Assembly (NCBI RefSeq): GCF_900143005.1
Contig: NZ_FRCS01000010.1
Coordinates: forward strand, 62,001 to 126,000
Length of the DNA stretch: 64,000 bases
Source: Cryptosporangium aurantiacum
GTDB taxonomy: Bacteria; Actinomycetota; Actinomycetes; Mycobacteriales; Cryptosporangiaceae
Direction: 5' to 3'
The notes beneath the pieces were generated by a model. That model saw only the letters and a list, made by a program, of their open reading frames with translations, had not been told where the DNA came from and searched no databases. This document shows, one piece after another, positions 9,938-55,029 of the stretch (positions are counted from its first letter, which is position 1; the number at the start of each line of letters is the position of its first letter). The translations under genes were made by a program, and so were the position numbers.

Positions 9938-10147
9938 GCGGACACCCCTCCCCGTCTGCCGCCGGCCACTAGTCCGAAGCGTCAGTTTACGGACGCTGCT
10001 ACCCGGACTCACCGTAGCGGCCCCTCGCACCCGTTCTCGTAGTAGGCGGGACATTACGGGCTACCCTCCATCATCCCGTTCAGTCACCTTTTGCCCACGC
10101 GGGCCGGGCCGTGATGTCGTCCTCCCCTCTATGATCCGAACCGACAG

Positions 10148-10188
10148 GGGTTTCGGATTGGTCCGTCGGCTACACGACGCCGAAACCC
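10148..10188. repeat. Nested inverted repeat between divergent genes
   Basis: GGGTTTCGG (10148-10156) pairs with CCGAAACCC (10180-10188). Inside, CGTCG (10164-10168) pairs with CGACG (10175-10179), stacking directly on the right arm. It lies in the 393-base gap (9938-10330) between the divergent lipoprotein and DUF695-like genes. I see no gene in that gap and no clear consensus promoter. Confidence 0.5.
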
Positions 10189-10330
10189 ACCCGTAACGCA
10201 CGTAAGAAGACCGAGTAAATCCGCCCGATCGGGCCACGTTCTGCAAGCGTCCAGTCACGTGCAGTCATCGATCGGACCTCGGGGCCGGACCGCTGCGGCG
10301 GACGGTGGCGCGGGTTGGCAAACTGCCTTC

Positions 10331-11326
10331 ATGGCGCTGTTCGAACGTCGCACTCGCGACCCGCGGGACAGCATTGCCGCGTTCTGGAGCTGGTGGGCCC
10401 GCGCACGCGACCAAGTGGGCGCCGGCCTCGACCGCGACGACCTCGGCAAGCTGCATCGAGACCTCACCGGGCGAGTGCGCGCCATCCACCCGGAGCTGGC
10501 CTGGGAACTGACGTCCGGTCGGCAGGCCAAGCATGCACTGGTGGTCAGCCCGGAGGGGTCACCAGCGCTGCGCCCGGTGACCGAGCGGTGGCTTCGCGCC
10601 GGCCCCGGCCCGGACGCCGACTGGGAGTACTACGCCTCCCGGCAACCCGACCCGGCCGCGTACACCGGTTCGGTGCAGCTCGGTGGTCGGCCGTTCCACC
10701 CGGGCTCCGCCCGGTTCGGGTTCGAGATCGACCTCGACCGCGCACGGGTGCACGTCGCGGTGTGGCACCCCGATTTTCCCCGCTTGGACGAGGCGATCCG
10801 GCTCCAAGCGTCGTTCCTGCTCCTCGATTGGGCACTGGGTGAGGACGACGTCGAACGCTGGCTGGGCGAGGTCAAGGTCACCAGCGAAGACCAGCCGTAC
10901 GGCGTCGACGCGTTGCGCGCGGCCGTGGTCGAGTTGTCCACCCACTACCAGCACGGCGAGTGGGTCACCGTGGACGGCTTCGACGACCGCGATCGGCCGG
11001 TGGCGGTCCGGGTGCGGGTGCCGTTCGCGCGGCTCGACTATCCGCTCTACGACCTGCACGGCCGGGTACGGATGCCGTTCGAGCCGGGGTCGGCGGAGGA
11101 AGCGGCGCTGGACGGCATCCAGAACGGGTTGCTGGGGCGGCTCGGGGACTCCGCGGTCCTGGTTGCGGTGGTGACTGTTTCGGGCGTGCGTACGTTGCAC
11201 CTCTACGCGGACAGCAACGGGGTGGTTCCCGACCAGGTGGCGACCTGGGCGACACAGCAGTCGATCGCGATTACGCAGGAATGGCGTCCGGATCCGGGCT
11301 GGGAAGCGGTGCGCGGCCTGTATTGA
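10331..11326 (+). CDS. DUF695-like domain protein
   Basis: This 331-residue soluble protein resembles actinobacterial DUF695 proteins. Its N-terminal half has the pattern FWSWWARARDQV, AIHPELAWELTSG, HALVVSPEGSPALRPVTERWL and DADWEYYASRQPD. The middle contains LLLDWALGEDDVERWLGEV, and the C-terminus is a mixed alpha/beta region ending in ITQEWRPDPGWEAVRGLY. No catalytic motif, signal or membrane segment is seen. The ATG at 10331 is preferred over an in-frame start at 10259, whose extra 24 residues are low-complexity. There is no Shine-Dalgarno; CAAACT sits 6 bases before the ATG, so it may be leaderless. Function unknown. Confidence 0.75.
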   Translation: MALFERRTRDPRDSIAAFWSWWARARDQVGAGLDRDDLGKLHRDLTGRVRAIHPELAWELTSGRQAKHALVVSPEGSPALRPVTERWLRAGPGPDADWEYYASRQPDPAAYTGSVQLGGRPFHPGSARFGFEIDLDRARVHVAVWHPDFPRLDEAIRLQASFLLLDWALGEDDVERWLGEVKVTSEDQPYGVDALRAAVVELSTHYQHGEWVTVDGFDDRDRPVAVRVRVPFARLDYPLYDLHGRVRMPFEPGSAEEAALDGIQNGLLGRLGDSAVLVAVVTVSGVRTLHLYADSNGVVPDQVATWATQQSIAITQEWRPDPGWEAVRGLY

Positions 11327-11450
11327 CGTGGGTGGCGGTTCCGATCGGTGAACGATCTCAGTCAACTCACAACTGTCACTTAAGGAATCGACCGTTCTAC
11401 GGCAGGGTAAGGGCCCTGAACCCGGCTCGTAACCCGCAGGAAGGAACGGC

Positions 11451-11987
11451 ATGACCAACACCCCGCCTCCACCGAGCGCGGCACCGCCGCCGCTACCTGG
11501 TCAGGAGCCACGTCCGCCGCGGCCGACCACGGTCACGGCAGCGGCCGGCCTCCTGATCGTTGCAGCGGTCTTAAGCGTCATCGGCGTGATCGTTTCGCTG
11601 ATCACCCAGGACACCATCCAGCAGGCCGCCGACGAGTTCGCGGAAGCGAACAACACCACGTCGAGCAGCGGCGGGTCGGCCCAGCAAGTCGGCGGCATCA
11701 TCTTCAGCCTGGTGTTCGCTGCGGCGTTCGTCGCGCTCGCGCTCGGCTTGCTCCGTGCGGCGAACGTCGCCCGGATCATCACCTGGGTGCTCTGCGGGCT
11801 GGGGCTCTGCTGCACCGGCGTCATATCGGCCTTCTCGCTGATACTCGTCGAGTATCTGCCGGGTGGGTACGTCGCCTATATGTACACGGTCACCGCCGTC
11901 ACGCTGATCATCTACATCGCGATCATCGTGCTGTTGGCGCTGCCGGCGTCCAACGCGTACTTCCGTCGGCCGAAGGCCGGGTTCTGA
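11451..11987 (+). CDS. Four-TM membrane protein with proline-rich N-terminus
   Basis: This 178-residue protein has a cytoplasmic Pro/Ala-rich leader (about residues 1-25) and four predicted membrane helices (about 27-52, 80-102, 105-131, 140-165). Between helices 1 and 2 is a Ser/Gly/Asn-rich loop. Small proteins of this plan are common in actinobacteria and are often annotated only as membrane proteins. AGGAAGGA lies 5 bases before the ATG. The gene is flanked by its own terminator, so it is probably monocistronic. I do not recognise a function. Confidence 0.8.
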   Translation: MTNTPPPPSAAPPPLPGQEPRPPRPTTVTAAAGLLIVAAVLSVIGVIVSLITQDTIQQAADEFAEANNTTSSSGGSAQQVGGIIFSLVFAAAFVALALGLLRAANVARIITWVLCGLGLCCTGVISAFSLILVEYLPGGYVAYMYTVTAVTLIIYIAIIVLLALPASNAYFRRPKAGF

Positions 11988-11997
11988 GCTGACGTTC

Positions 11998-12029
11998 GCG
12001 GGGCCGGCGGTGCACACCGTCGGCCCCGC
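11998..12029 (+). terminator. Terminator after the four-TM protein gene
   Basis: GCGGGGCCGGCGGTG (11998-12012) pairs with 12015-12029 over 15 positions with one G-T wobble, giving a very tight hairpin 11 bases after the stop. Confidence 0.75.
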
Positions 12030-12064
12030 AGCGTCCGGTAGCGCCGATCCGGAAGGATGCACGC

Positions 12065-12856
12065 ATGACGACAGCACTGGTCACCGGGGCAACGGCCGGA
12101 CTCGGCGCAGCGTTCGCCCGAGCACTCGCCACCGAGCGACGCGATCTCGTCCTGGTGGCTCGCGACGGTGAGCGGCTCGCCGCGACCGCGAAGCAGCTGA
12201 CCGAGAAGTACCACGTCGAGGTCGAGGTCCTGCCGGCCGACCTGGTCAGCGACGAGGGCTGTGCGCTGGTGGAAGCGCGGCTGGCGGACGCTACCCGCCC
12301 GGTGGAGCTGCTGGTCAACAACGCCGGCATCGGGCTCCGCTCGGGTTTCGTCAGCAACACGATCGACGACGAGGAGCGAATGCTCCGGCTCAACGTCCGG
12401 GCGGTCATGCGCCTCACCCACGCTGCGCTGCCGGGCATGATCGAGCGCGGGCACGGCGACGTGCTCAACGTGTCGTCGGTCGCCGGGTTCGGACCGACCG
12501 CGCCGGGCTCGACGTACTCGGCCACCAAGGCCTGGGTGACGACGTTCAGCGAGTCGGTGCACCTGACGCTGAAGCACCAGGGCGTGCGCGTGATCGCGCT
12601 GTGCCCCGGTTTCGTCCGCACCGAGTTCCACCAGCGAGCGGAGATTCCGACCAGCGACATCCCGGATGCGCTGTGGCTCGACGCCGACGCGGTCGTCCGG
12701 GATGCGCTCGTCGATCTGCGCCGTGGCCGCCCCACCAGCGTGCCGAGCGTCCGATACAAGGTTCTGGGCGGAATCGTGCGCTACGCACCTCGTCCGGTGT
12801 ATTTGCGGTTGATCGGACGGGCCGCAAAGACCGTCGGGCGGACGACTTCCGACTAA
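12065..12856 (+). CDS. SDR family oxidoreductase
   Basis: This 263-residue classical SDR has TGATAGLGAAFA (cofactor loop) at residues 7-18, NNAGIG at about 89, a catalytic Ser in the VSSVAGFG strand, and the YxxxK motif in STYSATKAW. It resembles the DltE/YbbO-like subgroup of SDRs used in lipid or ketone reduction, but the substrate is unknown. GGAAGGA lies 7 bases upstream of the ATG. The C-terminus is basic (IVRYAPRPVYLRLIGRAAKT), possibly membrane-associated. The next gene starts 10 bases after its stop, so the two may be co-transcribed. Confidence 0.92.
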   Translation: MTTALVTGATAGLGAAFARALATERRDLVLVARDGERLAATAKQLTEKYHVEVEVLPADLVSDEGCALVEARLADATRPVELLVNNAGIGLRSGFVSNTIDDEERMLRLNVRAVMRLTHAALPGMIERGHGDVLNVSSVAGFGPTAPGSTYSATKAWVTTFSESVHLTLKHQGVRVIALCPGFVRTEFHQRAEIPTSDIPDALWLDADAVVRDALVDLRRGRPTSVPSVRYKVLGGIVRYAPRPVYLRLIGRAAKTVGRTTSD

Positions 12857-25512: not shown

Positions 25513-26757
25513 TTATTCGACGGGCTTCCCAGTACTGAGGGGTAGCGTCCGGAAACGACGATCGATGTGGTCGCGGATGGCGGGGAATCGGTCGGTTTCC
25601 ACCCGGGTCTCCGACCAGGCGCGACGCAACGTGTCGACGGTCGTAGCGGCGGTGTCCCGAGCGGCACCGTCGTCTATCCCGACACGTTCGGCGAGCGCCG
25701 ACACATGGTCGAGGCTGATGCGTTCGAAGATGGTCTCGCCGAGCCATGGAAGGGCGAACGGCGAGTACGGCCGCAGATAGACGGTGGTCGACAGAAAATC
25801 GTAAACCGGGCTCAGTTCCGGCGTTCGACCATCACGATAGATCAGCGACCAGTTCTTCAGATGAGCATCGTTGTTGCCGGTAAGGATCATTGCAACGAGG
25901 CGTCGGATATATTCCATGAATGCGGATTCGCCTGTCAGAGCTGCGATGATCGATCCGAGCCCCTCGACCGTATGAGGACCCACGCCCGGCATGTCGTATT
26001 TGAATCGTGGTTCGACCTCGAGCACCTGTGCGAAGTCTTCGATGTGTACGGGTCCATCGGGGCTCCGGTCGAACCGGGGAATGAGATAGACGAGGTCATC
26101 CGGCGTGGCCATCCCTTCCGGGAGGCCCTCGATCACCCGCGCGGGCGCTAGCTCAGGGACCGGCACCTCAAAACCCGCTCGTGCCAACCAGGTCATGACG
26201 ATGTACTCATTGGCTGGTACGTTCGGGTTCGCGCGGTCCGGCAATTTCGCGATCCACCAGGTGCCCCGGTCGCGAACGGGAATGCTCAAACGGTCAGCAG
26301 GCACCGACAGCTTTCCCTGCATTCCGGAGAGCGAGGACCAGCGTACGTGATCGTCGGGGTCGGGCTCAGGACCGAAATCCTCCACGGTTTCGGAGCGAAG
26401 GACCTGGTCGGCGATCTCTGGATCCTCCACGACCCTCAGCGTTACCGCGCCTGGTAGGTCGGTGCGGAGTTGCAGCAGCAAGCGAGGATCGTCCAATTGG
26501 CCCCGGCCCAGCGTCTGTTCAATGTAGCGGCGTAGCGCACCGCCGCTCTCTGGGAGGAGGTTGGCGAACCAGGCCGGAACTCCGGTTCGTTCCTGCCGTA
26601 CTGCTCCCGGACTCTCCTCAAAAGCCTGACCGAGCACCAGGTGGTCAGAAACATCGACACGATCAGTGTAATAGAAGCGCGATCCTCCGCGCGTCAACAC
26701 CATGTGGCCGACGTGATGATCGTGCAACTGAACGATGGCGACCACTTGCTTTTTCAC
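25513..26757 (-). CDS. HipA-like Ser/Thr kinase
   Basis: This 414-residue protein has the HipA kinase layout. The N-terminal subdomain contains PAWFANLLPESGG (about 61-73). SGMQGKLSV (144-152) matches the HipA SGxQxK loop, Lys171 (WIAKLPD) is the likely ATP-binding lysine, NNDAHLKNW (295-303) is the catalytic loop with Asp297 and Asn302, and PVYDFLST supplies the metal-binding Asp320. HipA toxins phosphorylate translation factors such as glutamyl-tRNA synthetase; the target here is unknown. No HipB-type HTH antitoxin is adjacent. It starts with GTG overlapping the stop of the DUF262 gene (GTGA), so the two are translationally coupled. The DNA is less GC-rich than flanking genes, suggesting transfer. 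Confidence 0.9.
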   Translation of the reverse strand: MKKQVVAIVQLHDHHVGHMVLTRGGSRFYYTDRVDVSDHLVLGQAFEESPGAVRQERTGVPAWFANLLPESGGALRRYIEQTLGRGQLDDPRLLLQLRTDLPGAVTLRVVEDPEIADQVLRSETVEDFGPEPDPDDHVRWSSLSGMQGKLSVPADRLSIPVRDRGTWWIAKLPDRANPNVPANEYIVMTWLARAGFEVPVPELAPARVIEGLPEGMATPDDLVYLIPRFDRSPDGPVHIEDFAQVLEVEPRFKYDMPGVGPHTVEGLGSIIAALTGESAFMEYIRRLVAMILTGNNDAHLKNWSLIYRDGRTPELSPVYDFLSTTVYLRPYSPFALPWLGETIFERISLDHVSALAERVGIDDGAARDTAATTVDTLRRAWSETRVETDRFPAIRDHIDRRFRTLPLSTGKPVE

Positions 26758-28349
26758 TTGAGAGTCCCGGAACGCATCAGATCTCTAATCGTCCGTCCAT
26801 CGCGCGCCCCCCACTCGGCCATCCGATCGATGTGGTTGTTGATAGCTGCCTCAACCAATAGCTGTCGATGTTCGAAAAATTCGTCTGTCCGACCTTGGTG
26901 GAGAAGCTCGACGGCTGCCTCGTCGAGGAGGTGGCTGTCGGCAATTCCTTGATCGACCTTCGTCAGCGCGGCGGCAACGTTGGTCCCACCAAGAGCCCCA
27001 TGGACGATGCGATTCGCGGCGCTCTTGCTGAGTGGGCTGGAACTTTGCGTGACGACTTGCCGCCATGGGTTCTTCGGGCCTGCATCCAGGAGTTGGGTGG
27101 GCTCAAGAATTGCACCCGTCCGGAGATCGCGGGGTTCCTGTGCGAGGAATCCGAGGAGAATTAGCTTGCCGACCGTCAGTCCGATACTGATGCTGGATAG
27201 CGGGATAGGCCTGGAAGGCCGCTTGTGCGGCACGGTCTGCAACAATCGCTCCGCCGAAGCCAGCGGATCCTGGTCGATAGTGGCTACGGCCCGGCGAATC
27301 GTAGTCACGCTCACACTCTGGTGGCCGAGTCCCGAGACAGCCTCTCGCCAGATCCATCGGCGCAATAGCTCTGCAGCACGGCCCTCCGGATGCCCGTGCA
27401 ATCCGCAGAACCGAGTGAGAACGTAGAGCGTATGAGTGTGGGGAAGGATCCGAATGTGCGGTATGCCAGCTCCGGCCCGTAGGAACTCCACCGCACGAGT
27501 CACGGCGCTGAGCGTGTGATCCAGTGCCTCGCTGAACTCAGTCGGGTTGTCGAACTCGCCGTGTGGGTCGCGGAAGACATCGCTGCCGCGATAGGCGCGG
27601 ACACACCGCAGCGCCGCGTCCTCCTCCAGCTTGCCGAAGCCCAGATCGGCCACTCGTGCAGTTAGCGTGTTCAGCGTGTCCGGCGCCGTTCCCGCAGCGT
27701 TGAGGGCATGAAAAACCTCGGAGAGTGTCATGGGCCGACCGCTGTTGTTCATTCGATCGAAGATCAGGCGAAGATCGCGCTCGTCATCACCGCTGACCGT
27801 GTACGTCGGTATCTGATACTCGCGCACTGTCGCGGATACTTCTTCGATCATGTCGATCTGCTCGTCGGTGATCCACTCGCTGTTCAAACGCAACCAGGCG
27901 AGCAATCGCTTGGTGTCGAGGAGGCGAGACACCGGGAGCCAGACCGGATTAGCCTCGAACGGCTCGATGACCGAGCGAAACTCCTCATTGGATACATCCA
28001 AGACGATGCGCAATCGTGGATCAGCTACGTCGTCCGGGGCCGTCAGGGCCCCGACGATGCTGATGATGCGCTGTTGACCGTCGACCACCCAATTCGCGTC
28101 CGGAACGGCTGGAACACGCATTTGTATCGGGCCAAGACTGAGTTCGCCCTCCGCGGCCGGGCGTCGCCAGAACAGAAGGCTCCCGATCGGAAACCCCCGC
28201 CGGAGACTGTCGAAGAGGGTAACGACGTCAGTCGGCTGCCACTTGTATGGTCGCTGGAAGGGGGGAATTCGGACTTTCCCGGCCCGGACCTCTGTCACGA
28301 GGTCGACCGTCGTCAGGTAGCCGGTGCGCGGCCGACCCAGCGTCGTCAT
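26754..28349 (-). CDS. DUF262 (GmrSD N-terminal-like) protein coupled to HipA-like kinase
   Basis: This 531-residue protein carries the ParB/Srx-like DUF262 fold: IPPFQRPYKW (28-37), the signature DGQQR (90-94), and IFDRMNNSGRPMT (196-208). In GmrS-like proteins DUF262 binds or hydrolyses nucleotides and is joined to a DUF1524 HNH nuclease domain. Here the C-terminal third (about 385-531) keeps a DUF1524-like pattern (SKSAANRIVHGALGGTN, then FFEHRQLLVE), but I find no DHIxP histidine motif; the matching place reads GAILEP. So it may be a non-cleaving regulator or a degenerate nuclease. A strong AAGGAGG Shine-Dalgarno precedes the ATG. It overlaps the HipA-like gene by 4 bases. Confidence 0.87.
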   Translation of the reverse strand: MTTLGRPRTGYLTTVDLVTEVRAGKVRIPPFQRPYKWQPTDVVTLFDSLRRGFPIGSLLFWRRPAAEGELSLGPIQMRVPAVPDANWVVDGQQRIISIVGALTAPDDVADPRLRIVLDVSNEEFRSVIEPFEANPVWLPVSRLLDTKRLLAWLRLNSEWITDEQIDMIEEVSATVREYQIPTYTVSGDDERDLRLIFDRMNNSGRPMTLSEVFHALNAAGTAPDTLNTLTARVADLGFGKLEEDAALRCVRAYRGSDVFRDPHGEFDNPTEFSEALDHTLSAVTRAVEFLRAGAGIPHIRILPHTHTLYVLTRFCGLHGHPEGRAAELLRRWIWREAVSGLGHQSVSVTTIRRAVATIDQDPLASAERLLQTVPHKRPSRPIPLSSISIGLTVGKLILLGFLAQEPRDLRTGAILEPTQLLDAGPKNPWRQVVTQSSSPLSKSAANRIVHGALGGTNVAAALTKVDQGIADSHLLDEAAVELLHQGRTDEFFEHRQLLVEAAINNHIDRMAEWGARDGRTIRDLMRSGTLK

Positions 28350-28399: not shown

Positions 28400-29518
28400 T
28401 CACGCCGGTCGATGCGTCGTCAGGAGTTCGACCGCTTCGTCGACGTCGTCGGTGAGGTGAACGACCGCGGGCACCTCGGGGGCCTGAGTGAACAGCGGCC
28501 GCAGCAGCGCCTCCACCGGCAGCACGTCCGTCCAGTACCGACGGTCCAGGAAGATCATCGGCCCGGACGCTCCGTCGCTGCGGTAGAACGCCTTGGTCGC
28601 CGCCTGGAACACCTCCTGCACGGTGCCCGCCTTGCCCGGCGCGAACACGATGCCGCCGCGGGCCGCGCGCAGGATCGTGTCCTCCCGGATCGCGTTCGAG
28701 AAGTATTTTGCGATCCGGGCAGCGAACAAATTGGCCGGTTCGTGTCCGTAGAGCCAGGTCGGGATCGACAGCCCGCCGGCCCATGGCTCGGCCGACGGGT
28801 ATCGCGCCCGGACCGCCAGCGCCGCTGCGGTGTACGGCTCGTGGTCGACGAAGTACGGCGCCGCGGACAACTCCTTGAGAGCGGCGTCCAGCGCTTCGGC
28901 CGACGGCACGTAGGCCCCGAGGTTGGCCGCTTCCATCACGCCCGGCCCGCCGCCGGTCAGCACCAGCGCACCGGCGTCGGCCAGCGCCCGGCCCAGCGTC
29001 GCGGCCTCCCGGTACGCCACCGAACCGCGGGGCTCGGCGTGTCCGCCCATGACACCGACCACCGGTCCGGTCGACGCGGACGCCCAGGCGGCCAGCGCGT
29101 CCGACAGTGCGTTGTCGATGCCGTGGTCGTGCAGTCGCTGCGAGAGCGCCTCGCGGATCGGCGGCAGCGGGCCGCCGTGCTCGACGAAGTGCCGGTAGAC
29201 GACCGAGTCGTACATGCCTGCGAAGCCGCTCGCCTCGAACCCGACGGTCAGGTCGGCCGCGGTGTAGAGCGTCGACGGGTGAGTCGGGTAGGGCGCGTGG
29301 GCGAGCTCCGGCACCACGGACGCGCCACGCGCTACGAGGTCGGCGGCCTCCGGTGCGTTCAGCCGGCAGCCGAGGAACAGCGTGTCCTCGACCGTGACGT
29401 CGGCCAGCGAGATCCCGGTGAGGTCCAAACCTTGAACCGCGAGCCCGCTCAACGTCCGTTTGTCCAGCCAGATCCTGAGTTCGGCCAGGGTCTCTACTTC
29501 GTCCGGGGTGGCGTCCAC
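28400..29518 (-). CDS. LOG-like Rossmann nucleotide-binding protein
   Basis: This 372-residue cytosolic protein has a LOG (lysine decarboxylase-like) Rossmann domain at about 145-330: VVGVMGGHAEPRG, ALVLTGGGPGVMEAANLGAYV, and the motif APGKAGTVQEVFQ, corresponding to the PGGxGTxxE of nucleoside 5'-monophosphate phosphoribohydrolases. The third residue of that motif is Lys rather than Gly. The N-terminal 140 residues are an extension not seen in the small LOG enzymes. Likely role is nucleotide or cytokinin-type ribotide hydrolysis, or nucleotide sensing; that is inference. It lies 50 bases upstream of the DUF262 gene on the same strand, but base composition differs, so I read it as host backbone. 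Confidence 0.82.
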   Translation of the reverse strand: MDATPDEVETLAELRIWLDKRTLSGLAVQGLDLTGISLADVTVEDTLFLGCRLNAPEAADLVARGASVVPELAHAPYPTHPSTLYTAADLTVGFEASGFAGMYDSVVYRHFVEHGGPLPPIREALSQRLHDHGIDNALSDALAAWASASTGPVVGVMGGHAEPRGSVAYREAATLGRALADAGALVLTGGGPGVMEAANLGAYVPSAEALDAALKELSAAPYFVDHEPYTAAALAVRARYPSAEPWAGGLSIPTWLYGHEPANLFAARIAKYFSNAIREDTILRAARGGIVFAPGKAGTVQEVFQAATKAFYRSDGASGPMIFLDRRYWTDVLPVEALLRPLFTQAPEVPAVVHLTDDVDEAVELLTTHRPA

Positions 29519-30194: not shown

Positions 30195-31880
30195 TCATCC
30201 GGCTTCTTCCGGGCGAGCCTTCTTCGGCAGCAGGAACGACAGCCCGGCCAGCACCACCATCAGCGCGGCGTCGATCAGCAGCAGTTTTTGCGCGGCGTCG
30301 GTGAAGATCTCCTTGCTCGCGGCGGCGCCCTCGTCCGCCAGCACCGCGCCGACCTCCGGGGTTACCGACGCCCGGCAACTCTCCGGCGTCGCGGCCGGAT
30401 CGTCCGCGGTGGCCCGGTCCCGCACGCAGTCGCGGAAGTCCGCGACGATCTCCTCCTGGGCGGCGGCGGGTACTCCGGCGGCGGACAGCTCGGCGCGGAG
30501 GGACGGCGTCACGGACCCGACCCCACTGATCACCGCGCTCCCGAGCAGGCCCACGAACACCGAGGTCAGTACCGCGACCCCGACCGTGGCGCCGAGCTGC
30601 TGGATCGCGTTGAGCAGCCCGCTCGCCGAGCCGACCTCGGTGTCGTCCACGTCGCCGAGCGCGATGTCGAAGAACGGCGCCACCACGCCGCCCATGCCGA
30701 TGCCTGCGACCAGCAACCCCGGCGCGAACGCGACGCTGCTGACCGACGAGCCCGCGATCTCCAGCGTGAGCCACACCCCGGCGATGCCCGCGGCCATCAC
30801 CAGCGCGGAACCGACCACGACGTACCGGCCGAAGCGCGGCACCAGCACGCCCATTGCGAGTCCGGCGCCCACCGCGACGCCGAACGGCCACGGGCCCATC
30901 GTCAGACCGGCGCGCAGCGGGGTGTAACCCAGGCCGATCTGCAGGTAGAGGGTCATGACCAGCATCAGACCGCTCATCCCGGCGAAGAACAGCAAGCCGA
31001 CGACGAGCGAGCTGCTGAAACTGCGCTTGCCGAACAGGCTGGGCATCACCAGCGGTGCACGTCCGTGTCGTGAACGCCGCACCAGGTGGACGCCGAGCAG
31101 CACGAACAGCACAACACCGAGGGCGAGACACCCGAAGATCCACCGTGGCCAGTCCAGTTCGTTGCCCTGCACCAGCGGATAGACCACCAGGAACGCCGCG
31201 GCGGTCGCGAGCCCGGCGCCGAGCGGGTCGAGCCCGCCTGCCGACGGCGTCCGGTCCTCCCGTAAGACGGTCACCGCACCGATCAGCGCGACGAGGCCGA
31301 GCGGCACGTTGATCAGGAAGATCATGCGCCAGCCGGTACCGAACAGGTCGGCATCCACGAGCGCGCCACCGACGATCGGCCCGGCCACCGCGGAGAGCCC
31401 CATCACCGGGCCGAAGAACGCGAACGCCTTGCCGAGTTGGTCGGGCGGGAACGCGGCCCGGATCAGCCCGAAGCCCTGCGGGATGAGGAGTGCGGCGAAC
31501 AGTCCCTGGAGGAGTCGGGAGCCGATCAGCATGCCTGGCGAGACGGCGAGCGCGCAGGCGGCGGAGCTGAGCGTGAAGCCGGCGACACCGATCACGAATA
31601 GGCGTTTCCGGCCGTAGAGGTCGCCGAGGCGACCGGCGGTGAGCAGTCCGACCGCGAACGCCAGCGTGTAGCCGGCCGAGATCCACTGGATCGACGCGTA
31701 GGTGCCGCCGAGATCGTCGCGGATCGCGGGTGAGGCGACGCCGACGATCGTGGTGTCGAGCAGGTCCATCACCTCGGCGACGAGGACGACGGCCAGGGCG
31801 AGCCAGGCGAGCCGCCCGCCGGCCCGATAGCCGTCGGGCGGGCGGGCAGGCGCGGTGGGGGTTTCTATCTGGGAAGTCAC
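30195..31880 (-). CDS. MFS drug exporter, DHA2 family
   Basis: This 561-residue integral membrane exporter has about 14 helices. Motif D1 is MDLLDTTIVGVASPAIRDDL, motif A is AGRLGDLYGRKRLF, and antiporter motif C is GPVMGLSAVAGPIVGGALVD. Near the C-terminus a soluble-looking loop (about 475-535) with two Cys (DFRDCVRDR, PESCRAS) sits before the last helix, as in other actinobacterial DHA2 exporters. The GTG at 31880 is chosen because AAAGGAGCC lies about 8 bases upstream; the frame is open to 31916 but that would run into the operators. It is divergent from a TetR gene; four GAAC-N3-GTTC-type sites lie between them. Confidence 0.94.
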   Translation of the reverse strand: MTSQIETPTAPARPPDGYRAGGRLAWLALAVVLVAEVMDLLDTTIVGVASPAIRDDLGGTYASIQWISAGYTLAFAVGLLTAGRLGDLYGRKRLFVIGVAGFTLSSAACALAVSPGMLIGSRLLQGLFAALLIPQGFGLIRAAFPPDQLGKAFAFFGPVMGLSAVAGPIVGGALVDADLFGTGWRMIFLINVPLGLVALIGAVTVLREDRTPSAGGLDPLGAGLATAAAFLVVYPLVQGNELDWPRWIFGCLALGVVLFVLLGVHLVRRSRHGRAPLVMPSLFGKRSFSSSLVVGLLFFAGMSGLMLVMTLYLQIGLGYTPLRAGLTMGPWPFGVAVGAGLAMGVLVPRFGRYVVVGSALVMAAGIAGVWLTLEIAGSSVSSVAFAPGLLVAGIGMGGVVAPFFDIALGDVDDTEVGSASGLLNAIQQLGATVGVAVLTSVFVGLLGSAVISGVGSVTPSLRAELSAAGVPAAAQEEIVADFRDCVRDRATADDPAATPESCRASVTPEVGAVLADEGAAASKEIFTDAAQKLLLIDAALMVVLAGLSFLLPKKARPEEAG

Positions 31881-31988: not shown

Positions 31989-32720
31989 TTGGACGACATG
32001 CCGGTACCGCCCTGGCGCGAGCGCAAGAAGACCGCTTCGGTCCGGCGTCCGCTCAGCTACGAGCAGATCGTCGACGCGGCGATGACCGTCCTCGACTCCG
32101 AGGGCGTCGACGCGATGAGCATGCGGCGCGTCGCACAGGAACTCGGCACCGGCGCCGCGTCGCTGTACGCGCACGTCCAGAACAAAGAAGAGCTGGTCGA
32201 CGCGGTGGTCGACCGTGTGCTCGCCACCGTGGAGTTCCCCGAACTGACCGGCGACTGGCGCCAGGACTTCACCCGGTTCGCCTACGCCACCCGCGAGGCG
32301 CTCATCGCTCACCGGGACGTCGCCAAAGCACTGTGGGGCCGCGTCCCGACCGGCCCGAACGCGATGCGGCTGAGCAACGAGGTATTCGGGATCCTGCGCC
32401 GGATCGGCCTACCCGACCAGCTCGCAGCCTGGGCCGGCCCGCTGCTGTTCGACTACATCACCGCGGACGCCCACGAGGGCAGCCTCTACGCTGCGGCGTT
32501 CGGCGATGCGGACAACGGCCAGCAGTACTTCAAGGGGCTCGGGGCGTACTTCGCCAGCCTGCCCGCCGACCGGTTCCCGCACGTCGTCGAGCTCTCCGAG
32601 GCCCTCACCACCGGTGGCGGCGAGGAACGGTTCGCGTTCGGCCTCGACGTCCTGCTCACCGGCCTCGCGGCCAAAGCAGCCGCGTCAGAGGCCCTCGGCG
32701 ATAGCGGCGGCGATACGTAG
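31989..32720 (+). CDS. TetR family regulator with TetR_C tetracycline-repressor-like domain
   Basis: This 243-residue regulator has an N-terminal HTH (MRRVAQELGTGAASLYAHVQNKEEL) and a C-terminal domain like the TetR_C_1 group (EFPELTGDWRQDFTRFAYATREALIAHRD). I give a TTG start at 31989 because GGGGAG lies 5 bases upstream; the ATG three codons later (31998) is the alternative. A start at 31911 would overlap the operators. It is divergent from the DHA2 exporter and is its presumed repressor through four GAAC-N3-GTTC sites. The 3' end overlaps the convergent ParA-like gene by 36 bases. Confidence 0.9.
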   Translation: MDDMPVPPWRERKKTASVRRPLSYEQIVDAAMTVLDSEGVDAMSMRRVAQELGTGAASLYAHVQNKEELVDAVVDRVLATVEFPELTGDWRQDFTRFAYATREALIAHRDVAKALWGRVPTGPNAMRLSNEVFGILRRIGLPDQLAAWAGPLLFDYITADAHEGSLYAAAFGDADNGQQYFKGLGAYFASLPADRFPHVVELSEALTTGGGEERFAFGLDVLLTGLAAKAAASEALGDSGGDT

Positions 32721-35540
32721 CCAGGCGTTGCGAGTACGAGCCGACAGCTCGCCGTACCGGATCGGCTCACCCGAGTCGAGCAGCTTCTCGTACGGCGCCA
32801 GCAGCACCGCGCGCGTCCGGGCCGCGAAGTGCCGCTGGATCGCAGGCAGGTCGACGTCCTTCCGGCTGGCCGCCATCGCGACCACGGTGACCGCCCGGCG
32901 CACGAGCTCGTGCCGCCCGGTCTGGTCGAGGTGGTCGAGCATCCGCGCCGCGGTCTCCGCCGAGTCGCCGCGCGCCGACATCGTGACGACGAGCTGGTCG
33001 GTCGCGTCGATCGCGGCCTGCCAGTTCTCCGCCCGGACGTTGTTCCCGGTGTCGACGACGATCAGCTTGTAGAACCGGCTGACGACCTCGCGGATGTTGA
33101 CGAACGCCTGCGCGGTGAGCATCTCACCGGCGGTCGCCGACTCGTCCGACGCCAGGACGTCGAACATCGCCTCACCCTGCGACCGGACGTACGGCGTCAG
33201 GTCGCCGACCTTGCCGCTGTTCTGGAAGCTCGGCAGCGCGCGCAGGACGTCCCGGACCGTGTGGACGTGGTAGTCCTGCTGGGAGCGCATGCCCAGCGTC
33301 CCCTGGGTCTCGTTGTTGTCCCAGGCCAGGACGTAACCACCGCGGTTCTGGCCGAACGTCATCGCGGTCATCAGCACCGCGACGGTCTTGCCCGCGCCGC
33401 CCTTCGGGTTGACGACCGTGACCTGGCGCAGCCCGCCGAAGTTCCGCCGGACCTTCGCGACCGCGTCCCGGTACTCGATCTCCCGCTTCGACAGCTGCGG
33501 GCTCACGGTGCCGAACGTGACCCGCCGAATCAGCGCGGGTACGCCCATCGTCGGTTCTGGCGGCCGGGGCCGGTGCGCCCTGCGGGCGGCGAATTCCTCC
33601 GCGGTCGGTGGTACGGCCGGTTGGTCGAAGCTGGGCTGGCCCGGGCCGGTCCGCCACTCCGGCTGCGGCGTCTGCCGTGGTGGCTGTTCCTGCAACGGTT
33701 GTGGACGCTCGGCGGCAGTGTCCGGCGCGGGCCGGTAGGCGTAGTGGTCTGCGGGCCGATGTAGGTCGTGTGCGGCTGGTGGTGGTACCGGAGGCGGACC
33801 GGCCGGAGGCTGTTCGGTGGGCCACGCCGCCGCAGCCGGTGGCGCCGCCCATTCCTGGGCCGGTTGGTCCGGCGCGGGCTCCGGTGCGGGCTCTGGCTCC
33901 GGGGGCGGCGCCGGCCACTGCGGTGCGGTCAACGGGTCGGGCTCAGCGTGCTGCCCCGAGACGGGCTGCCCCGAGACGGGCTGCCCGTAGGTCGGCTGCC
34001 CGGATACCGGGTGGTTGTACACCGGCTGCCCGGAGATGGGCTGCCCGGAGATGGGCTGCCCGGAGATGGGCTGCCCGGAGATGGGCTGCCCGGAGATGGG
34101 CTGCCCGGATACCGGGTGGTCGTACACGGGCTGGCCGGAGATCGGCTGTCCCGACGTCGGCGGGGTGGCCGAGGGGTCGCCGGAGACCGGGAACCCGCCC
34201 TGCTCGGAGGTCGGCTGCCCGGAGACCGGGTGGTTCGGATCCGCGGGTGCGGGCCACTGCTGCTCCGGCGCCTGCCATTGCTGGGGCTGGTGGGGCTGCT
34301 GGGGCTGGGGCGGCTGGTGGGGCGGCGGCGCGGGCTGCTGCTGGGCGGGCCACTGTGGCTGCTGCGCAGGCCATTGCTGCTGCTCCTGCGGGGGCCACTG
34401 GTTCTCCTGCCCCGGCCACTGCTGCTGCGCGGGCCACTCCTGCTGGGCAGGCCACTGGTTCTCCTGGCCGGGCCACTGCTGTTGCGCGGGCCACTGCGGT
34501 TCCGGCGCCGGCCAGCCGGGCTGCTGCTGCGGCCACTGCGCCGGTTGCTGCTGCGCCTGCCACTGCTGCTGGTCGTGCGGTGCCTGCGCCGGCCACTGCT
34601 GCTGGCCCGGCGGCTGCTGGGCGGGCCATTGCTGTTGTTCGTGCGGTTGCTGCGGCGGCCACTGCTGCTGGCCCGGTGGCTGCTGCGCCGGCCACTGCTG
34701 GCCCTGCGGCTGCGCGGGCCACTGGTGCTGCCCCGGCGACTGGTGCTGCCCCGGCGACTGGTGCTGCCCCGGCGACTGGTGCTGCCCCGGCCACTGCTGC
34801 TCCGCGCCCGGCGTCTGGTGCTGCTCCGCGCCCGGCCACGGCGGCTGGCCACCGGGCGACTGCTCCGCGCCCGGCCACTGCGGTTGGCTGCCGGGCGGCT
34901 GCTCTGTGCCTGGCCACTGCGGTTGGCTGCCGGGCGACTGCTCCGTGCCCGGCCACGGTGGTTCGCCACCGGACTGCGGCTGCGGCGTCGGCTGTTGCTG
35001 GGGCTGGGCACCGGCCTCTGGCGACGCCGGCCGGTCCGCGGCCTCCTGATCGCGGAGCTGGCCGAGCCACTGCTGGTCCGCCGAGTCAAGGTCACCGGAA
35101 CCCACCTGACCCGGCCAACCCTGCGCCGACGGCGGCTGCCACTGCTCGTCCGGTGCCACGCCGGGCACGGTCTGGGCGTGCGGCCCGGGGTCCTGCGGTG
35201 GCGCCGACTGGGGGCCGTCGGGCCTCGGCCACTGCGGCAGCGTCGGCTGCTCGCTCGGCGACGGCGGCCCGGAGGTCGTGGCGTCCGGGCCCGGCTGCGC
35301 GGGCACCTCGGGCGTCTCGGCGATCCGGACGACCCCGTTCGTGCCGGTGGTGCTCTCCGCCCATCCGGAACCGGACTGCAGGTGCTGGGCCGCCTGCACA
35401 CCGTTGGACGACGCCTCCGAGGACCCGGGTGTCGTCGGCTCTGGCCATCCGATCGCGGACGGCTCGCCGGACACCTCGGAGTGCGCCCCGGAACCGGGAC
35501 GACCGTTGGCCTCACCGTTGCTCTGGCCGGTGCCTTGCAC
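32685..35540 (-). CDS. Pro/Gln/Trp-rich protein with C-terminal ParA/MinD-like ATPase (EspI-like architecture)
   Basis: This protein of about 950 residues has a huge low-complexity N-terminus (about 1-640) rich in Q, P, W, G and S with repeats of QQWPAQ, QHQSPG and QPISG type, and a C-terminal P-loop ATPase. The deviant Walker A is PKGGAGKT (about 245 residues from the end), the switch region holds WDNNETQGTLGMR, and Walker B is KLIVVDTGNN. Short ParA-like ATPases after long Pro-rich regions recall EspI of the ESX-1 secretion locus and related MinD-like proteins, but no ESX genes are here. Partner and cargo are unknown. Start is uncertain: GTG 35540 has GGGGGG upstream; the frame is open to 35573. 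Confidence 0.85.
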   Translation of the reverse strand: MQGTGQSNGEANGRPGSGAHSEVSGEPSAIGWPEPTTPGSSEASSNGVQAAQHLQSGSGWAESTTGTNGVVRIAETPEVPAQPGPDATTSGPPSPSEQPTLPQWPRPDGPQSAPPQDPGPHAQTVPGVAPDEQWQPPSAQGWPGQVGSGDLDSADQQWLGQLRDQEAADRPASPEAGAQPQQQPTPQPQSGGEPPWPGTEQSPGSQPQWPGTEQPPGSQPQWPGAEQSPGGQPPWPGAEQHQTPGAEQQWPGQHQSPGQHQSPGQHQSPGQHQWPAQPQGQQWPAQQPPGQQQWPPQQPHEQQQWPAQQPPGQQQWPAQAPHDQQQWQAQQQPAQWPQQQPGWPAPEPQWPAQQQWPGQENQWPAQQEWPAQQQWPGQENQWPPQEQQQWPAQQPQWPAQQQPAPPPHQPPQPQQPHQPQQWQAPEQQWPAPADPNHPVSGQPTSEQGGFPVSGDPSATPPTSGQPISGQPVYDHPVSGQPISGQPISGQPISGQPISGQPISGQPVYNHPVSGQPTYGQPVSGQPVSGQHAEPDPLTAPQWPAPPPEPEPAPEPAPDQPAQEWAAPPAAAAWPTEQPPAGPPPVPPPAAHDLHRPADHYAYRPAPDTAAERPQPLQEQPPRQTPQPEWRTGPGQPSFDQPAVPPTAEEFAARRAHRPRPPEPTMGVPALIRRVTFGTVSPQLSKREIEYRDAVAKVRRNFGGLRQVTVVNPKGGAGKTVAVLMTAMTFGQNRGGYVLAWDNNETQGTLGMRSQQDYHVHTVRDVLRALPSFQNSGKVGDLTPYVRSQGEAMFDVLASDESATAGEMLTAQAFVNIREVVSRFYKLIVVDTGNNVRAENWQAAIDATDQLVVTMSARGDSAETAARMLDHLDQTGRHELVRRAVTVVAMAASRKDVDLPAIQRHFAARTRAVLLAPYEKLLDSGEPIRYGELSARTRNAWLRIAAAIAEGL
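34031..34105. repeat. Five perfect 15-bp tandem repeats (encode QPISG)
   Basis: CGGAGATGGGCTGCC is repeated five times without change. On the coding (minus) strand each unit encodes one QPISG pentapeptide. Diverged copies flank the array. Identity at the DNA level points to recent expansion. Confidence 0.95.
34722..34793. repeat. 18-bp tandem repeats (encode QHQSPG)
   Basis: CTGGTGCTGCCCCGGCGA occurs three times in perfect tandem, followed by a fourth copy with one change (34776-34793). They encode QHQSPG hexapeptides in the low-complexity region of the ParA-like protein. Confidence 0.9.
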
Positions 35541-35633
35541 GGATTGGAACCCCCCAACATTTGGCCGGAGCACTGCAGTGGAGTATGCCCAATATCCATA
35601 CTGCCGGTACCTACCAATGGCCGATAACGCCGG

Positions 35634-36515: not shown

Positions 36516-37841
<1,326 letters not shown>

Positions 37842-37931
37842 GTCGCTCGTCGGGTCGGCGGCCCGTGCGCGCCCCAGCTATAACGGCGGTACGAGACGGC
37901 GCTGGTGGGGCGGAGCGGGAGGCAGGTGACG

Positions 37932-39071
37932 ATGGCGGACGACGATTCCGAGCGCAGGGTTTCCGAGCGCGGGGTTTCCGAGCGCGGGGCTTCCGAGCGC
38001 GGGGACTCCGAGCGCGGGACCGAGGAGCTTCAGTCGGCGCCGGCGGACACCGGGTTCGCCTCGCAATCGCGGCCCGGCCTTCCGCCGCGGTGGGTCGCGG
38101 GCGGCCGGACGTTATCCAAGCTCGACGGTCTGGGGCTCGCGGCTCGCCTGGCCCGGCTCGCGGTCGTCGTGGTGCTGCTGGTTGGCGCCGTCGTCGTCGC
38201 CGCGGTCACGGTGAGCGGGGTCGGGCCACCGTCGCAGGACGACCTTCGGCGGCAGGCCGGTCTGTTCGACAAGCGTCAGCTGCTGATCGGCGTCAAGGAC
38301 GACCAGCCGGGGATGTCGCTGCTGGACAACGGCGTCTACCGCGGCTTCGACGTCGAGATCGCGTACCTGGTCGCTGCCAGCCTGGGGTTCGCCCCGGACG
38401 ATGTGCGGTTGCTGACGATCGAGAGTGAGGACCGCGCCCGGCGTCAGGCCCTCGACGTGAAGACGAAGAAGATCGTCACGGTCGACCTGGTCGTGGCCAC
38501 GTTCAGCATCACGCCGGCACGCGAGGCCGACCCGGACGTCTCGTTCTCGGCGCCGTATCTGCGTACCGAGCAGTCGGTTCTGACCCGGAAGACGTCCGCT
38601 CGGTACGAGGCGTTGTCCGACCTCGCCGACCGGAAGGTGTGCACGCTCAACACCACGACCTCGAAGCAGAACCTCGAGGCGGCCGGTGTGCTTCCGTTCG
38701 GCAAGAACAAGATCAGCGAGTGCGTCCGCGGGCTGGAGTCCGGCGCGTACGACGCGGTCTCCACCGACGCGGCGATCCTGGCCGGGTTCGTCTTCGAGAA
38801 CCCCGGCAAGTTCACGATCCACGACATCGGGTCGGAGGGCAGCGAGCTCTACGGCATCAACGTCGGCACGAACGAGGCGCTGAAGACGCTCGTCGACCTC
38901 GCGCTCTACCGCTCGTACACCGAGCCGACCGACCGCCGCTGGGAGACCGCGTACGACACCTACCTGCGCCGGGAGCAGCCGAGCGCGATGCCGCAGCAGG
39001 TCGCGGTCGCCAAGCAGCCCGACGTCGAGAAGCCGCGGGTGCGGATCTGGCCGTGGGAGGACGAACAGTGA
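37932..39071 (+). CDS. Membrane-anchored solute-binding protein family 3-like
   Basis: This 379-residue protein has a cytoplasmic N-terminus with five SERG-type pentapeptide repeats, a membrane helix (about 74-96), and an extracytoplasmic domain like the periplasmic amino-acid-binding proteins (SBP family 3; GlnH-like). Key blocks are LLIGVKDDQPGMSLLDNGVYRGFDVEIAYLVA, VDLVVATFSITPAREADPDVSFSAPYL, and the closing SEGSELYGINVGTNEALKTLVDLAL. No ABC permease or ATPase is adjacent, and the protein is anchored by a helix, not a lipobox. So it may be a sensor or a component of an unusual signalling unit. GGGAGG lies 9 bases before the ATG. It overlaps the next gene by GTGA. Confidence 0.85.
   Translation: MADDDSERRVSERGVSERGASERGDSERGTEELQSAPADTGFASQSRPGLPPRWVAGGRTLSKLDGLGLAARLARLAVVVVLLVGAVVVAAVTVSGVGPPSQDDLRRQAGLFDKRQLLIGVKDDQPGMSLLDNGVYRGFDVEIAYLVAASLGFAPDDVRLLTIESEDRARRQALDVKTKKIVTVDLVVATFSITPAREADPDVSFSAPYLRTEQSVLTRKTSARYEALSDLADRKVCTLNTTTSKQNLEAAGVLPFGKNKISECVRGLESGAYDAVSTDAAILAGFVFENPGKFTIHDIGSEGSELYGINVGTNEALKTLVDLALYRSYTEPTDRRWETAYDTYLRREQPSAMPQQVAVAKQPDVEKPRVRIWPWEDEQ
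37947..38021. repeat. Five 15-bp tandem repeats (encode SERGx)
   Basis: TCCGAGCGC(A/G)GGGnn is repeated five times in tandem, encoding SERRV-SERGV-SERGA-SERGD-SERGT in the cytoplasmic tail of the solute-binding-like protein. Confidence 0.9.
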
Positions 39072-40132
39072 CCCGGCCGCAGCCGGTCATGCTGCCCGCG
39101 CGCCGGCGCCGGGGCCGTGACCAGCAGTGGATGCTCACCGCGCTCCCGGCGTTCCCGCTGCTGTTGCTGGTGCTGCGGCTCTGGTACCTGAGTCGGCAGG
39201 ACCTGCAGACGATGCTGCTGCTGGTCCAGAACGTGAGCCCGCTCGGTCTGATCGGCTCCCTGCTGATCACGCTGATCTGGGTGCCGCCGGTGTTCATCCT
39301 GGTCGGGCGGGCGTTGGGCGCGCTGCTGCTGGTCAGCTCGATCGACGCCGGGCGGTCGTGGCTGGCGCGTGCCGCGGGCCGGACGCCGGGCTGGGTGGTG
39401 CTGTCGGCGTTCGCGGTCGCCGCGGTCACCTGGCAACTGCGGTTCCTGCCGACGCTCGGCATGCTGCTGCTCGTCATCTTCGCGCTGGACGTCCGGCTGC
39501 GGTACGAGGATCACCCGCAGCTGATCCGGATGGCGTGCATCGTGGTGCCGGTGGTCTGTTCGGTGCTCGGCCTCCTGCTGTTCGGCCCGGCCACGCTGGA
39601 CGCCGTCCGGGCGGGCGAGCCGGAGACCGCGTTCCTGCTGATCGCGCCGGTGGTGGCGCTGCCGTTCCTGACCGGTCCGGTGCCTGCGCCGTCCGCGCGG
39701 CTGGTGACGCACTGGGTTGCGATGGCCGGTCTGGTGATCGGGCCGATCCTGGTGGCCGCGATCTTCGTCCAGGCGCCGGTGTTGCCTGCGGTTGCGGTGG
39801 AGCTCAAGCCGGACGCGCTGGCCGACTCCTCGGCGGAGGAATCGGTCGGCGATCGGAGCGAGGTCACCGTGGTGCGGGGTCAGGTGATCACCGTGGACGA
39901 CCGGGCGACGACGCTGCTGGAGTCCGGCGGCAAGGTCGAGTTCGTGGCGAACGACGCGGTGATCTCCCAGGTGCTCTGCCCGGACCCGATCGAGCCGCCG
40001 TACAGCGCGGTCGAGGTGCACGGGTGGCAGGTGGAGCGAGCGATGTTGTCCTGGCTGGCCCCGTCCCGTTCGTTATCCGACGACCCCGACCCCCGCTGCC
40101 TGGGCCGTCCCGCTCGACCAGGCGGTGGCTAG
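39068..40132 (+). CDS. Polytopic membrane protein coupled to the solute-binding-like protein
   Basis: This 354-residue protein has about six to seven membrane helices in the first 235 residues (for example WMLTALPAFPLLLLVLRLW, WVVLSAFAVAAVTW, IACIVV-type helices) and an extracytoplasmic C-terminal segment of about 110 residues that includes a VTVVRGQVITVDDRATTLLES stretch and two Cys. The GTG start overlaps the upstream stop as GTGA, so it is translated with the solute-binding-like protein and probably forms a unit with it. I recognise no family. The last 60 bases overlap the convergent MocR gene. Confidence 0.78.
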   Translation: MTRPQPVMLPARRRRGRDQQWMLTALPAFPLLLLVLRLWYLSRQDLQTMLLLVQNVSPLGLIGSLLITLIWVPPVFILVGRALGALLLVSSIDAGRSWLARAAGRTPGWVVLSAFAVAAVTWQLRFLPTLGMLLLVIFALDVRLRYEDHPQLIRMACIVVPVVCSVLGLLLFGPATLDAVRAGEPETAFLLIAPVVALPFLTGPVPAPSARLVTHWVAMAGLVIGPILVAAIFVQAPVLPAVAVELKPDALADSSAEESVGDRSEVTVVRGQVITVDDRATTLLESGGKVEFVANDAVISQVLCPDPIEPPYSAVEVHGWQVERAMLSWLAPSRSLSDDPDPRCLGRPARPGGG

Positions 40133-54177: not shown

Positions 54178-55029
54178 ATGCGGCTGATCGCGGGCCGATA
54201 TGAATTGCATCGAGAGCTGGGCGCCGGGGGAATGGGGGCCGTCTGGCTCGGGACGGATCAAGTGCTGCGGAGATCCGTGGCGATCAAGGAAGTCCGGCTG
54301 GCGCCACTGGACGCCGTCGGCACGACGAGGCTCACGGCGGCGGCCTTCCAGGAGGCGCGGGCCGCGGCGGCGCTCAGCCACACGCACATCGTTCCGGTGT
54401 ACGACGTGGTGGAGCACCGCAGCCGGCCGTGGATAGTGATGCTGGCGATCGAGGGGCCGACGCTCCAGCAGCAGGTGCAGGAGAGCGGTCCGCTGCCGGT
54501 CGACACCGTCGCGCGGATCGGGCGGAGTCTCGCGTCCGCGCTGGACGCCGCCCACGAGCAGGGCATCGTCCACCGGGACGTGAAGCCGGCGAACGTGCTG
54601 CTCGCCGCCCACGACCACCCGTGGCTCACGGATTTTGGCATCGCGCAGTCGCTCGCCGTCGCGTCGTCGTCCTCGTGCCGGGCCGCCAAGGGGAGCCCCG
54701 GCTACGCGGCGCCGGAGCAGGTGCGCGGCGAGCCGCCCGGCCCCGCCGTGGACGTGTTCGGGCTCGGCGCGACGCTGTATTACGCGGTGGAGGGTGACCA
54801 CGCGTTCCACGGCGAGGACGGCTGGGCGACGCTGATGGCGCCCGAGTACGGGACGCCGCGCAAGCCGGAGCGGGCGGCGTGGCTGGAGCCGATCCTGCTG
54901 CGGATGATGGCGCGGCGCCCGGCCGAGCGGCCGACGCTGACCGCGGTGCAGGAGGCGCTCCGGGTGCGGCGGCTCGCTCCGCGCCGCCGCCCGGGCCGCT
55001 GCTGCTTCACCCGCCTGCGCCGCCGCTGA
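54178..55029 (+). CDS. Soluble Ser/Thr protein kinase
   Basis: This 283-residue protein is essentially a bare Hanks-type kinase domain. The glycine loop is LGAGGMGAVW, Lys37 lies in VAIKEV, the catalytic loop is HRDVKPANVLL (Asp134), the metal motif is TDFGIA (152-154), and the P+1/APE region is GSPGYAAPEQV. Unlike many actinobacterial kinases it has no linker, membrane helix or sensor domain; after the kinase core come only about 20 basic residues. The activation loop (AVASSSSCRAAKG) has several Ser for autophosphorylation. GGTGGGGG precedes the ATG. The 190-base gap upstream (53988-54177) is comparatively AT-rich and probably carries its promoter. Confidence 0.93.
   Translation: MRLIAGRYELHRELGAGGMGAVWLGTDQVLRRSVAIKEVRLAPLDAVGTTRLTAAAFQEARAAAALSHTHIVPVYDVVEHRSRPWIVMLAIEGPTLQQQVQESGPLPVDTVARIGRSLASALDAAHEQGIVHRDVKPANVLLAAHDHPWLTDFGIAQSLAVASSSSCRAAKGSPGYAAPEQVRGEPPGPAVDVFGLGATLYYAVEGDHAFHGEDGWATLMAPEYGTPRKPERAAWLEPILLRMMARRPAERPTLTAVQEALRVRRLAPRRRPGRCCFTRLRRR

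Follow-up and report, generated by a model that had tools for sequence, protein, structure and literature searches.

Amino-acid sensing in Actinobacteria has been described for the GlnH-GlnX-PknG operon, on which we draw from three reports (PMC6069109, PMC9769921, PMC8546545). In the M. tuberculosis GlnH, Trp232 and Lys161 touch the side chain of the ligand, and Arg147 is the side-chain arginine (PMC6069109). The same report also names other receptors coupled to solute-binding proteins (SBPs), namely the maltose-binding protein with Tar and the TMAO-binding protein with TorS (PMC6069109). Here we report a pair of overlapping genes from Cryptosporangium aurantiacum, located in a stretch of 64,000 nucleotides (positions 62,001 to 126,000 of contig NZ_FRCS01000010.1, hereafter the window). 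Like GlnH-GlnX-PknG, the pair joins an SBP_3 protein at the membrane (P0001) to a dedicated membrane protein (P0002) without an ABC transporter.

The SBP gene and its product

Translation of both frames bore out the coordinates 37932-40132 and the overlap of the two genes (Table 1). The first protein had been described in an earlier note on this DNA as a tail of SERG repeats joined to one membrane helix and an SBP-3-like domain, and all three elements were recovered here, from the tandem repeat, hydropathy and Pfam. GTG codons at 37926 and 37905 are also possible starts for P0001. Its match to SBP_bac_3 (PF00497) scored 46.9 bits against a curated cut-off of 26.4, and in the AlphaFold model of the protein (mean pLDDT 83.3), whose anchor helix extends from residue 68 to 95, the top solved fold match was M. 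tuberculosis GlnH, with Z values of 26.5 (6h2t) and 26.2 (6h1u), the next match being at 25.3. The N-terminal tail is of low complexity, and the repeat within it counts 4.9 copies with 93% matches. No tandem SERG was found in any frame of three congener stretches (L032, L036, L037), where only scattered single SERG words occur; because it is not conserved in the congeners the repeat looks incidental, and we rejected it as a functional element. A lipobox-like motif was seen in none of the 11 called SBPs of the window's own type versus 55 of the 59 called SBPs of a second type (see below), and two (L092, L115) of the four second-type SBPs negative for this motif carry a similar AGC motif.

Table 1. 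Positions in the window of the gene pair, of its parts and of the gene upstream
Feature	Positions	Strand	Remarks
purA-like gene	36555..37841	+	Upstream of the pair; presumably adenylosuccinate synthetase, judging by its sequence
SBP gene P0001	37932..39071	+	379 aa; N-terminal tail in the cytoplasm, then a single membrane helix and the SBP_bac_3 domain
15-base tandem repeat coding for SERG repeats	37946..38018	+	Not kept in congeners
Membrane anchor, residues 76-94 of P0001	38157..38213	+	Hydropathy and model; window-type SBPs lack a lipobox
SBP_bac_3 match, residues 118-309 of P0001	38283..38858	+	Pfam and comparison with GlnH; pocket R168, T190, S192, R197, D279; C237, C264
GTGA shared by both genes	39068..39071	+	End of P0001, start of P0002
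Membrane partner gene P0002	39068..40132	+	354 aa; matched no known family
Membrane domain, residues 22-235 of P0002	39131..39772	+	Probably seven helices, N-in (hydropathy, model, loop charge)
Small beta-barrel, residues 238-305 of P0002	39779..39982	+	C-terminal, probably external; holds invariant Cys304; the tail behind it has invariant Cys344

The membrane partner

Neither P0002 nor its family gave a reliable match to Pfam, NCBIfam or the sequences of the PDB; DUF6897 reached an E value of 0.0069 in three of 39 family sequences, under its cut-off. In the AlphaFold model built from 39 sequences (mean pLDDT 84.7, pTM 0.75), helices run from residue 10 to 235 and are followed by strands from 241 to 304. 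A simple hydropathy scan gave six hydrophobic peaks. With seven helices, the loops follow the positive-inside rule, the mean number of Lys and Arg residues being 3.7 at the N-terminus and 4.2 in loop 2 versus 0.4 and 1.1 in external loops 1 and 5, respectively. Because of the modelled helices and the loop charge, seven transmembrane (TM) segments with an external C-terminus fit best, and P0002 is probably a 7-TM protein with its N-terminus inside and its C-terminus outside. That the second protein is polytopic was therefore confirmed, and the external C-terminus also proposed for it is supported by model and loop charge, short of proof. Such a topology would place the C-terminal barrel and the tail outside, which accords with the invariant Cys304 and Cys344, two residues that might form a disulfide.

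The barrel superposed on Hfq (3hfo_B) at 1.0 A over 51 residues with a Z of 7.7, below the caution line of 8 given by the tool, and Foldseek paired it to 3hfo_A with a probability of 1.00 but an E value of 0.13, while the top row of the structural search was a different barrel (Z 8.0). Because other small barrels score alike, we name it Sm/SH3-like only. Among the rows listed, which cover residues 237-310 only, there was no solved match for the membrane helices. The cytoplasmic parts of P0002 are short, and no output domain is apparent in them.

Distribution and inheritance of the pair

Relatives of P0002 occur in 12 of 101 related genomes, in 2 of 396 genomes sampled across the phylum, and, within the family to which G076 belongs, in 237 of 354 genomes. 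A contig scan with the P0002 sequence alone found no relative and a profile scan did; in the named genomes, the profile scan gave 90 matching loci, 80 of which were kept (L041-L120), from Micromonospora, Verrucosispora, Catellatospora, Plantactinospora, Actinoplanes, Rugosimonospora, Spirilliplanes, Pilimelia, Actinosynnema and further isolates. Two subfamilies can be told apart, the window type (A) and a second type (B) about 30-36% identical to P0002, whose SBPs are for the most part lipoproteins, and the window's own genome (9.58 Mb) carries one pair of each. Its second pair (L023, contig C13, 7369-9350, minus strand) is diverged, and faces a NitT/TauT-type ABC cluster encoded on the other strand.

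An SBP gene adjoins the membrane gene in all 155 stretches that hold the latter (144 distinct by membrane-gene DNA; 80 are the named loci), which is more than chance and upholds the conservation of the pair. In 80/80 named loci the SBP gene immediately precedes the membrane gene in the same orientation; a first criterion gave 77/80, and missed L054, L102 and L118 solely because the second gene's open frame starts before the first gene. As far as these stretches go, the two genes have always been inherited together. Both parts are fused as a single 679-aa protein in one finished genome (L031, 8205-10244, minus strand), with an SBP_bac_3 score of 69.4 bits; if the topology above holds, this fusion would need an additional membrane crossing in its linker, and we regard it as weak support. 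All four genomes of the genus keep the purA-like gene close to the pair; most other relatives do not.

Ligand pocket

The ligand contacts of M. tuberculosis GlnH, taken from its description (PMC6069109), were mapped onto an alignment of 81 pair SBPs. Among rows with a residue at the position, R168 (Arg147 in GlnH) and R197 (Arg169) are kept in 80 of 80 each and S192 (Ser164) in 78 of 80, a Ser or Thr stands at the position of Thr162 in 79 of 80, and D279 (Asp250) is found in 80 of 81. Cys237 and Cys264 of P0001, present in all 81 SBPs, fall in the same columns as the GlnH cysteines, and the alpha-amino-acid triad of GlnH is retained. Poor conservation of the pocket, which would speak against sensing, is thus not what the 81 SBPs display. 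Trp232 and Lys161 of GlnH are replaced in all rows, by Ile/Val and Ala/Ser respectively. AncQR, an ancestral Gln/Arg binder, and AncCDT-1 have Ile in the Arg147 column. From these residues we infer, with doubt because Trp232 is missing, that the likeliest ligand would be an acidic amino acid (Asp/Glu-like).

Transporter genes and other features around the pair

Between positions 29001 and 49000 of the window, queries drawn from this organism's genome and from one relative turned up no ABC ATPase and no permease, as the earlier note had maintained. An MFS-like gene with 11 helices lies at 30195-31880, and no Rfam family was found in 24000-48000. Nine permease queries detected a polar-amino-acid ABC permease near the pair in 0/155 stretches and were positive in 16 of 30 control stretches, namely those labelled ABC, so that relatives beside such permeases, which would point to import, did not come to light. 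An importer that lost its ABC genes was rejected on the same count. NitT/TauT-type permeases are present in seven pair stretches (L023, L025, L028, L043, L048, L054 and L055, with L025 and L048 being one place), always on the opposite strand. An ABC-ATPase-like gene occurs somewhere in 19 pair stretches, none with an amino-acid permease; because six of these (L041 and its duplicate L230, L050, L218, L228 and L260) have it on the same strand, the surroundings of the pairs are not entirely free of ATPases.

Two other parts of the window are worth recording. At 25513-28349 (minus strand), in its lowest-GC stretch (0.612), a HipA-like gene (HipA_C, 130 bits) overlaps a gene with a GmrSD_N domain, and the two are a candidate toxin or defence pair. 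A 962-aa frame at 32685-35573 (minus strand), for which Pfam gave no match, has a long, repetitive N-terminal part rich in Gln, Pro and Trp and an ATPase-like C-terminus with a GGAGKT motif, which we take to be ParA/MinD-like.

Ser/Thr phosphorylation genes near relatives

In 30 of 74 distinct window-type places, which were picked by rank and by hand and not at random, the pair is followed on its own strand, after 65-240 bp, by a PP2C gene. These places belong to five genera: all 21 fetched from genus g279, 4/4 from g286, 3/3 from g299, one from g296, and Spirilliplanes. All five of the downstream genes tested scored above the Pfam cut-offs for PP2C. The remaining 44 places, among them the divergent Actinoplanes locus L054 and places from Micromonospora, Actinosynnema and the genus of the window, lack the gene. 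On the partner tree, the PP2C label is on two separate branches (three changes), and because Micromonospora rows nest in one of them, PP2C may be ancestral on that branch. In most PP2C-linked places a membrane GGDEF-EAL gene comes after the SBP, partner and PP2C genes (at 9950-12172, plus strand, in L042, and similarly elsewhere), which hints at a tie between the pair and cyclic-di-GMP.

Four Micromonospora genomes (L214-L217; 4/74 distinct window-type places) encode a PknG-family kinase downstream of the pair and in the same orientation; the gap measures about 190-310 bp in three of them, and in L217 a trypsin-like gene intervenes. This link comes from one clade with shared flanking genes, and the PknG operon of that clade already has its own 4-TM protein and SBP_1 lipoprotein. 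Trypsin-like and PknG genes also mark a second kind of Micromonospora PknG operon (L217, 2336-10777, minus strand; L219, 3352-11392, plus strand), to which L217 adds genes for a VWA protein, a protein with four TM segments, an SBP_1 lipoprotein and Trypco1; this seems to be a branch of PknG that is fed by other inputs.

Among second-type pairs, a Ser/Thr kinase gene (matched to Pkinase of Pfam) precedes the partner gene by 2.1-5.3 kb, in the same orientation, at 50 of 64 named loci. Because other genes lie between, and the link is confined to Micromonospora and close relatives, plain synteny within the genus could explain it, and we regard it as weak.

At the level of whole genomes, genus g279 has the partner in 67/67 and PknG in 63/67 genomes, and genus g39 has PknG in 22 genomes and the partner in none. 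In genus g16, 21 genomes hold both PknG and a window-type partner (E under 1e-50), 11 PknG alone, 22 the partner alone and 104 neither (Fisher p 2.8e-7 over about 158 genomes, of which up to 3 may be missing, and with relatedness ignored), a co-occurrence that is only suggestive because it is not corrected for relatedness. Next to the pair of the window itself there is neither a phosphatase nor a kinase gene. A gene with a protein-kinase domain, called from an internal start, lies about 14 kb downstream (54277-55029, plus strand), and no evidence ties it to the pair. Each of the links to PP2C, PknG and the second-type kinase is modest; taken together, they favour a receptor for Ser/Thr phosphorylation.

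Relation to known systems

In a tree of 60 rows, 16 GlnH sequences from beside GlnX or PknG lie on one side of a branch (support 100/100), and the pair SBPs of both types form another group (100/99) together with the fusion, which sits on a long branch; 19 ABC SBPs fall outside the pair group. The hypothesis that P0002 is a diverged GlnX was rejected, as hhalign of 39 partner sequences against four GlnX gave a probability of 0.1 of 100. That the pair might be the organism's own GlnH-GlnX was rejected as well, since a canonical locus exists on another contig of the same genome (L024), where a GlnX-like gene with four TM segments is accompanied by an SBP resembling GlnH, one more gene and PknG (PknG_TPR, E 2.4e-81).

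The likeness to GlnH-GlnX-PknG extends to the alpha-amino-acid pocket, the side-chain Arg (though not Trp232 and Lys161) and the two matching cysteines, and to the PknG-family kinase adjoining some relatives of the pair. Unlike GlnX, however, which has four TM segments and two external four-helix bundles, P0002 is modelled with about seven and a small barrel. The SBPs of the pair belong to a clade separate from GlnH, those of the window type are anchored by a membrane helix rather than a lipid, and the pair in the window adjoins a purA-like gene instead of glnX or pknG. The SBPs of polar-amino-acid ABC importers (TIGR01096, PEB1a, ArtJ, AncQR) have the same Venus-flytrap domain, but the pair has no permease or ATPase partner, and its clade stands apart from 19 such SBPs. 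In GluR0-type receptors, an SBP core is fused to an ion channel; the pair likewise would be a membrane receptor whose ligand is bound by an SBP_3 core (fold match to 1ii5, Z 22.6), although here the two parts are separate proteins in nearly all cases and the membrane domain is unrelated. The pair would share its logic, an SBP that docks onto a relay in the membrane, with the maltose-binding protein and Tar and with the TMAO-binding protein and TorS, whose relays, unlike P0002, have their own cytoplasmic signalling domain. On our best reading, the pair would be a counterpart of GlnH-GlnX in function that works through another membrane relay, and belongs to neither family. Among the titles and opening lines of abstracts listed in searches on GlnX, GlnH and PknG and on SBPs with PP2C, seven-TM or Sm-like receptors, in a literature that covered few subscription journals, none describes this pair.

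Discussion

Because its relatives often adjoin phosphorylation genes and not a nutrient pump, the pair probably senses rather than imports. We lean, if cautiously, towards a two-part amino-acid receptor that would work like GlnH-GlnX-PknG with another membrane relay. The external Venus-flytrap domain would bind an alpha-amino acid with an acidic, Asp/Glu-like side chain and close, and the closed domain would then touch the external loops of the partner or its external C-terminal barrel, so that the 7-TM protein could carry the change across the membrane to the cytoplasmic Ser/Thr phosphorylation machinery. The output might be the PP2C phosphatase in Actinoplanes-like lineages and the PknG-family kinase in some Micromonospora, and in the second subfamily possibly a receptor-type Ser/Thr kinase; in the organism of the window, the cytoplasmic partner would not be encoded next door. 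A bolder version, to which we give tentative and distinctly lesser credence, sees in the pair a new receptor class, where an SBP tethered to the membrane and a 7-TM relay bearing an external barrel would directly control a PP2C-type phosphatase (and, in some lineages, a PknG-type kinase), and amino acids outside the cell would set Ser/Thr phosphorylation with no classical receptor kinase involved.

The ligand of such a receptor might also be something other than a free acidic amino acid, such as a cell-wall fragment or another amino acid, in which case the same architecture would serve envelope sensing. This seems unlikely to us given that nearly every SBP aligned has retained the side-chain Arg and the triad, even though the two other side-chain contacts of GlnH are replaced throughout the family and amino-acid SBPs of several specificities score nearly like GlnH in sequence and fold. 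Alternatively, as SBPs mostly serve transport, and the partner is polytopic and always paired with one, P0002 could be a new kind of permease to which the SBP delivers substrate, making the pair an SBP-dependent secondary importer. We consider this rather improbable: the neighbours in several lineages are phosphatase or kinase genes, acidic residues are rare in the predicted membrane segments and none there is invariant or nearly so, known transporters in Pfam, NCBIfam and the PDB sequences gave no match, and invariant external cysteines with a terminal barrel are, in our judgement, unusual for a permease. The earlier suggestion of a ligand-sensing membrane pair rather than an importer is hence supported by the missing permeases, the kept pocket and the phosphorylation neighbours, with sensing itself inferred from them.

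The resemblance of the barrel to the ring former Hfq (3hfo_B, Z 7.7), together with weak Foldseek matches to MscS-type channels, could suggest a ring-shaped, ligand-gated channel with GluR0-like logic and an Sm-like ring domain. Those matches, however, have probabilities of 0.1-0.4 and TM of about 0.1-0.2, the Z of the barrel is under the caution line of 8, no pore residues were identified in P0002, and its barrel is probably external, unlike MscS-type barrels, which are cytoplasmic; we regard a channel as very improbable. That the pair is an ordinary misreading, degraded or unrelated genes kept together by chance, deserves the least credence of all, for adjacency, pocket and cysteines are conserved over strong sequence divergence, even if the SERG repeat is incidental and the partner is found in a minority of the phylum's genomes (2/396).

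Which outside signals reach bacterial Ser/Thr kinases and phosphatases is an outstanding question, as one report puts it (PMC6069109). GlnH-GlnX is a worked example of such an input, and a second, unrelated relay beside PP2C, fed by a like amino-acid-binding input, would mean that the coupling of SBPs to Ser/Thr phosphorylation arose more than once. The membrane relay would represent a receptor family for which no description was found, and the SBP-partner-PP2C arrangement offers a compact operon in which to test an external ligand and a phosphatase directly. Micromonospora, Actinoplanes and their relatives are antibiotic producers, and nutrient control in these hosts has practical interest for that reason.
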